Assembly (NCBI GenBank): GCA_026416775.1
Contig: JAOAEN010000008.1
Span: 1-14,770 of the forward strand
Reading direction: 5' to 3'
From: Dehalococcoidales bacterium
GTDB lineage: Bacteria > Chloroflexota > Dehalococcoidia > Dehalococcoidales > RBG-16-60-22
DNA length: 14,770 bases
Positions 1 through 2,422 of this stretch are shown here, in pieces (position 1 is the first letter of the stretch; each line of letters opens with the position of its first letter). A program made the translations under genes and the position numbers. The notes beneath the pieces are model-generated. The model searched no databases, was not told where the DNA came from, and saw only the letters and a program-made list of their open reading frames with translations.

Positions 1-45
1 TGGCTACATAACCGGAGGCGGACAAGCCGGGAAAAGACCCAACAA

Positions 46-76
46 AAAAGCCCGGCGAGTCTTTCACCGGGCTTTT
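46..76. terminator. Intrinsic terminator, probably bidirectional
   Basis: A perfect 10-bp stem (AAAAGCCCGG at 46-55, CCGGGCTTTT at 67-76) encloses an 11-nt loop. Read on the minus strand, the stem ends in six T and then GTT, which suits termination of the zinc-ribbon gene that stops at 97. Read on the plus strand it ends in four T, so it may also stop a gene converging from the left. Positions 1-45 hold nothing I can identify. Confidence 0.85.
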
Positions 77-96
77 CTGCCATGCCTTAAGAAGAT

Positions 97-267
97 CTAT
101 GAAGATTTATCTTCAAGCTCTGCCGGCTTCTTGTTCTCATAGATCACCCTGAGGTCACGGACATAGGCACACTGCAGGCACTGTTCGTACCAGCCGTGGT
201 AATCCCTGTCGACATAGAGATTACCACCGCATTTCGGGCAGCGGCGCGCTACCCCCGTACTTCCCAT
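97..267 (-). CDS. Small zinc-ribbon protein (56 aa), function unknown, under a CIRCE operator
   Basis: The product is a 56-residue protein with four cysteines in two CxxC knuckles (C10/C13 in CPKCGGN and C30/C33 in CLQCAY), spaced as in a one-zinc rubredoxin-like ribbon. A charged tail follows, and there is no signal peptide or membrane segment, so it is probably cytoplasmic. I do not know a characterised relative; nucleic-acid, protein or chaperone contacts are all possible. The start is ATG at 265-267 because GGGAGG (276-281) lies 8 nt upstream. A longer reading frame to 363 is unlikely because its start overlaps the -35 box and it has no ribosome-binding site. The gene is monocistronic: its own promoter (334-363), an operator (306-332) and a terminator (46-76) bracket it. 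Known: CIRCE is the HrcA operator. Inferred: this is a heat-shock gene. The gene is very likely real; its function is open. Confidence 0.85.
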   Translation of the reverse strand: MGSTGVARRCPKCGGNLYVDRDYHGWYEQCLQCAYVRDLRVIYENKKPAELEDKSS

Positions 268-305
268 TTCGTTAGCCTCCCTTCCTCCGGTCTGACTAAT
301 CGGAT

Positions 306-332
306 TTAGCACTCTAAACCCCTGACTGCTAA
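306..332. promoter_or_regulatory. CIRCE element (HrcA operator)
   Basis: The plus strand reads TTAGCACTC, nine spacer bases (315-323), then GACTGCTAA. The established CIRCE consensus is TTAGCACTC-N9-GAGTGCTAA, so 17 of 18 arm positions match and the spacer is exactly 9. It starts 1 bp past the -10 box (334-339) of the zinc-ribbon promoter and covers the expected transcription start, the normal position for HrcA repression of groE and dnaK operons. No hrcA gene lies in this window. Confidence 0.9.
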
Positions 333-333
333 T

Positions 334-363
334 ATCATACAACATTGCGAAGTGTACTGTCAA
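334..363 (-). promoter_or_regulatory. Sigma70-type promoter of the zinc-ribbon gene
   Basis: On the minus strand a perfect -35 TTGACA (358-363) is followed by an 18-bp spacer and a -10 TATGAT (334-339, 5 of 6 consensus). The expected transcription start near 326-328 lies inside the CIRCE element and gives a leader of about 60 nt. Confidence 0.85.

Positions 364-475: not shown

Positions 476-2422
<1,947 letters not shown>

Follow-up and report, generated by a model that had tools for sequence, protein, structure and literature searches.

The HrcA regulon is usually regarded as small and made up of chaperone genes. In delta-proteobacteria groESL is the sole constant HrcA target, further targets being hrcA-grpE-dnaKJ and, in one Geobacter, rpoH (excerpted text of PMC545781); deleting hrcA in Lactobacillus plantarum also affects an integrase and a gene whose function is unknown (excerpt of PMC3842655). 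HrcA has been suggested as a regulator near reductive-dehalogenase genes (excerpt of PMC12090745), and some SAR202 have lost HrcA and Hsp20 (excerpt of PMC11994032). Here we describe a 14,770-nt stretch of DNA (the window; contig C336 of genome G000) from a Dehalococcoidales bacterium, in which the gene for a small four-cysteine zinc-ribbon protein (the ‘ribbon’) follows an HrcA operator of the CIRCE (controlling inverted repeat of chaperone expression) type. The ribbon gene is very probably under HrcA control and a member of the order’s HrcA heat-shock regulon, because the operator lies at its start site, hrcA with a like operator is present in the same genome, and the operator is kept at orthologues.

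With the described HrcA/CIRCE regulon (TTAGCACTC-N9-GAGTGCTAA) the locus shares the arms, the 9-bp spacer, the position at the start site and an operator before hrcA. It differs in having a ribbon gene as target, and in the arms of the order, which often read TTAGCAGTC/GACTGCTAA, and in some families TTAGCAATC/GATTGCTAA, rather than the textbook sequence. Our literature search did not find HrcA, CIRCE and ‘zinc ribbon’ together; the excerpts of PMC12090745 and PMC11994032 do not treat the ribbon, and work on Dehalococcoides heat shock and Hsp20 apparently does not either, as far as titles and the beginnings of abstracts tell. Relative to the literature searched, the ribbon is probably an undescribed heat-shock protein.

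A CIRCE-type operator at the ribbon gene

The site TTAGCACTC-N9-GACTGCTAA at 306–332 is one mismatch from CIRCE over 18 arm positions. Read on the minus strand, the order is TTGACA-N18-TATGAT, one base (333), TTAGCAGTC-N9-GAGTGCTAA, GGAGG and ATG; base 333 alone separates the operator from the −10, as an earlier note on this DNA, made from the sequence alone, had said. At up to three mismatches the CIRCE pattern occurs once in the window and is absent from all 200 of its dinucleotide-shuffled versions; for sites with at most one mismatch, the chance expectation in the 1.46-Mb assembly (86% complete, 347 contigs) is 0.0012 under an equal-base model.

The earlier note had proposed that hrcA be sought in the same genome. 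It was found on contig C26 (PF01628, 169.6 bits; TIGR00331, 298.5 bits against a cut-off of 197.2), itself preceded, 12 nt before its ATG, by the only other operator found in the assembly (C26:750–776). Allowing S at arm position 7 and at most two mismatches (the S-pattern) gives two sites in this genome, compared with none for the reversed pattern.

Searching the order for ribbons gave matches at E ≤ 1e-9 in 64 of 156 genomes, and up to 400 nt before the first cysteine were scanned for 108 ribbon rows with distinct cores. Ten rows had an operator, each with at most two mismatches, and the reversed pattern was found in none. The rows with an operator span four families (f1, f5, f15 and f37), and ranked by search score, nine of the 14 best ribbon matches carry it. 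A tree of 107 rows places all ten within one 30-row clade (SH-aLRT, the Shimodaira–Hasegawa-like approximate likelihood-ratio test, 90), a confinement with a Fisher value of 8.6e-7, uncorrected for the relatedness of rows. Conservation of the operator at orthologues, which the earlier note proposed to check, is borne out across these families and fails for 20 of the 30 clade rows. Class-wide, 128 of 393 genomes had a ribbon match; 29 loci, including 16 from beyond the order, were inspected, and only that of G044 had an operator at up to two mismatches.

An eleventh ribbon with an operator, in G029, was excluded from the row scan for an in-frame TGA. In this stretch (G029:C69; L009 1163–1309) the operator is one mismatch from the S-pattern, and the TGA stands at a conserved tryptophan position, which may reflect decay, error or recoding. 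Across the 11 ribbon operators, pairwise identity is 0.84 and 0.94 in the arms and 0.34 in the spacer; the arms are far more alike than the spacer, as expected of a selected operator.

The HrcA regulon in related genomes

Sites matching the S-pattern were assigned to gene matches lying no more than 500 bp away. Of 61 genomes, 60 had a site, with 117 sites in total against five for the reversed pattern, and 111 of the 117 lay within that distance of hrcA (51), groES (47), a ribbon (9) or Hsp20 (4, two of them before one gene). The operator was present at every one of the 51 hrcA matches and at 47 of 53 groES matches. The six other sites comprise one before an FmdB gene with a DnaJ-type gene (G035), one before FmdB (G033), one at a contig end (G040) and three that are unexplained.

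Among individual loci, CIRCE-type sites precede FmdB zinc-ribbon genes at L163 1574–1874 (with a DnaJ-type gene next) and L295 1840–2220. Operator-like sites with no recognised heat-shock gene nearby occur at L164 2169–2195, L166 1185–1211 and L167 2348–2374, two of them with two mismatches. An Hsp20 gene of G018 is preceded by two tandem operators (L261 1860–1944).

Several points weigh against HrcA control of the ribbon gene. The own-genome hrcA operator is weaker, departing from textbook CIRCE at three positions, and the search of this incomplete metagenome-assembled genome turned up neither groES nor Hsp20. Five of the 14 best ribbon matches lack the operator: G022:C11, whose upstream region is cut by the contig end; G006, which has TTAGCAGAC-N10-GACTGCTAA, where the spacer is 10 bp long and one arm base is changed; G034, with five mismatches to CIRCE; G045; and G041. 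The 20 clade rows without a site, a seven-row f16 group included, have none at up to three mismatches over the 400 nt scanned (for two rows, 110 nt or less was available upstream). The tree itself rests on few columns and is poorly resolved, and 16 of 31 own-family genomes, their assemblies incomplete, had no ribbon match at E ≤ 1e-9.

The many operator-less clade members, together with the right arm at 306–332 being one position off the textbook consensus and one reversed-pattern match at up to three mismatches in the own genome, would also suit a palindrome that arose by chance or is decaying, or a site for another regulator, with the ribbon outside HrcA control; yet the variant arms TTAGCAGTC/GACTGCTAA are likewise present at the order’s hrcA and groES genes, and neither the shuffles nor the contrast in identity between arms and spacer fits this explanation, which we consider highly improbable. 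Within it, we reject a chance palindrome on the shuffles and the conservation.

The ribbon transcription unit

The features of the locus are collected in Table 1. The operator, its N9 spacing and the single-gene unit are as the earlier note described them: because terminator-like sites at 40–82 and 482–464 flank it, the second overlapping the end of the upstream gyrB-like gene, the ribbon gene looks monocistronic. For the gene at 476–2416, gyrB-like is a provisional label, assumed from the look of its sequence. To call the promoter perfect was a slight overstatement: TTGACA is, whereas TATGAT matches at 5/6 positions and the spacer is 18 bp (11/12 matches overall). The gene extent of 97–363 had to be abandoned; that open reading frame is merely the longest reading and its TTG start falls inside the promoter, whereas an ATG at 267–265 on the minus strand, with GGAGG 8 nt upstream, opens a gene of 56 codons.

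Table 1 Features around the ribbon gene, in window coordinates
Feature	Position	Strand	Basis or remark
Four-cysteine zinc-ribbon protein gene, 56 aa (CPKC-X16-CLQC)	97..267	-	Translation, homologues, alignment
Shine-Dalgarno GGAGG	276..280	-	8 nt before ATG, direct reading of sequence
CIRCE-type HrcA operator, 17/18 arm positions, N9 spacer	306..332	.	Pattern scan, kept in relatives
-10 TATGAT	334..339	-	Promoter reading
-35 TTGACA	358..363	-	Promoter reading
Terminator-like site 3' of ribbon gene, 19 pairs + T run	40..82	-	
gyrB-like gene (assumed label) upstream of ribbon gene	476..2416	-	Probably separate transcription unit

Gene neighbourhoods of ribbons

Within the available stretches, no chaperone gene follows the operator and ribbon in the window or in G002, G018, G022, G025, G027 and G029. 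In G004, G138 and G135, Hsp20 (PF00011) is the next same-strand gene after them, and G135 carries two operator-like sites in tandem. The run behind the operator in G044 comprises ribbon, CxxCxxCC (PF03692), FmdB ribbon, groES and groEL genes, in that order; gaps between them reach ~245 nt, so that a single transcript is not proven. G036 also has a ribbon before Hsp20, this one from another clade and with no operator. Of the ribbons in the 32 genomes with both genes, seven are at most 2 kb from an Hsp20 gene, compared with 0.16 expected under uniform placement; three of these seven belong to one genus and are in divergent orientation.

The run of ribbon, CxxCxxCC (PF03692-like) and FmdB genes recurs in family f16 (L154, L247, L248, L250, L251, L252 and L253), the same trio that stands before groESL in G044. 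On the promoter side of G044, G004, G034 and G138 (L151, L152, L155 and L184), no TTGACA was seen by eye; TCTAACA-type repeats ~11 bp apart occur before the operator or its remnant, and genes for a sensor kinase and a response regulator lie next door in divergent orientation. The repeats may form a response-regulator box in combination with CIRCE.

A more distant ribbon paralogue lies between an HspR-like MerR gene and clpB in G000, G046 and G075 (HspR of G075 and clpB of G046 being assigned by reading and similarity only). The own-genome copy (L243, G000:C331, 1615–4115; ribbon at 1989–2174) is separated from the HspR-like gene and clpB by gaps of ~20–26 nt. Scores to the HspR model NF047375 were 83.8 and 86.6 bits, below the cut-off of 105. 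Taking CTTGAGT-N7-ACTCAAG for the consensus of the HspR-associated inverted repeat (HAIR), no match at up to three mismatches was found at hspR–ribbon–clpB in L243, L297 and L298.

In the class-wide set, HspR-like genes (41% and 39% identity) before the ribbon in L327 and L331, and Hsp20-like matches (37%) adjoining it in L342 and L347, are weak leads. Low-scoring ribbons of the order-level search were examined in another 20 stretches, and none had an HspR, ClpB or Hsp20 neighbour. Outside the clade, 32 of 77 tree rows have both Crp-type and ferredoxin-type neighbours, which speaks against a family-wide heat-shock role. Judged by these neighbourhoods, the ribbon family as a whole does not share the heat-shock link.

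Protein family and predicted fold

The ribbon search yielded 104 homologues, all at E ≤ 1.4e-10, and C10, C13, C30 and C33 are invariant over 57 aligned sequences. Among named matches, the top nine come from assemblies of Dehalococcoidales or Chloroflexi. The family profile found no clear relative among PDB sequences (best E 0.088), and Foldseek gave no match at E ≤ 0.001; TTHA0897/ZifS is a possible structural neighbour. A second structure model, from a wider alignment, hardly changed (predicted local distance difference test score, pLDDT, 68.5).

By its C10–C13 and C30–C33 pairs, the ribbon fits the definition of CPxCG-related small zinc fingers: fewer than 100 residues, with a CPxCG-like and a second cysteine pattern 7–40 residues apart (excerpt of PMC2253796). 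Brz of Halobacterium, one of these, is like the ribbon in having <100 residues and CPxCG and CxxC 16 residues apart; it differs in controlling bop in an archaeon, and a heat-shock link is not mentioned in that excerpt. The cysteine arrangement also resembles that of the RPB9-type zinc ribbon (PF02150), and the predicted fold may do so; the ribbon, however, is a stand-alone bacterial protein and scores 22.8 bits to Zn_ribbon_RPB9, under the cut-off of 25.2. FmdB proteins (TIGR02605/PF09723) are small ribbons too, and lie behind a CIRCE-type site in G035 and G033; they differ in sequence family, with an MPxYEYxC start.

Possible function of the ribbon

By analogy with established HrcA biology, HrcA bound to the operator would block initiation until unfolded proteins occupy GroE; HrcA would then lose activity, and the ribbon would be produced alongside GroE and the products of the hrcA operon. 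The neighbourhoods suggest that it may work with the protein-quality-control machinery (Hsp20 and GroESL, and ClpB for the paralogue). The earlier note’s idea of a helper of the heat-shock response fits these neighbourhoods and the HspR-like gene beside the paralogue; the folding factor, nucleic-acid binder and zinc or redox role that it named are all candidates for the molecular function. Our tentative preference for the most likely function is that of a small accessory or adaptor, stabilised by zinc, for chaperones or their clients.

A proteostasis role is the best reading of the neighbourhoods, and its main rival is a transcription-type regulator. In that case the ribbon would be an RPB9/Brz-like protein, made under HrcA control, that adjusts the activity of heat-shock or stress genes by binding to nucleic acid or RNA polymerase and does not itself handle proteins; we hold this rather unlikely, and less likely than a chaperone accessory or adaptor. 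More doubtful still is a zinc or redox buffer or sensor, in which heat or oxidation frees zinc from the four cysteines and HrcA only couples the amount of protein to stress. The invariance of those cysteines and the company of the CxxCxxCC and FmdB genes in G044 and the f16 group are consistent with such a part, but no zinc-homeostasis or redox gene was prominent in the neighbourhoods read, which were not systematically annotated.

For a proteostasis role more broadly, the settings of different paralogues, some probably under HrcA (by themselves, ahead of Hsp20 or ahead of groESL) and others in apparent hspR–ribbon–clpB operons, raise a prospect to which we give nearly even weight: that mini zinc-ribbon proteins are an unrecognised heat-shock component of Dehalococcoidia, and may serve as a zinc-dependent proteostasis co-factor of several chaperone systems. 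Found behind an HrcA operator in four families, in some by Hsp20 or upstream of GroESL, the ribbon is a candidate new heat-shock protein or chaperone accessory, and it may offer a lead to function for part of the large uncharacterised group of CPxCG small proteins.
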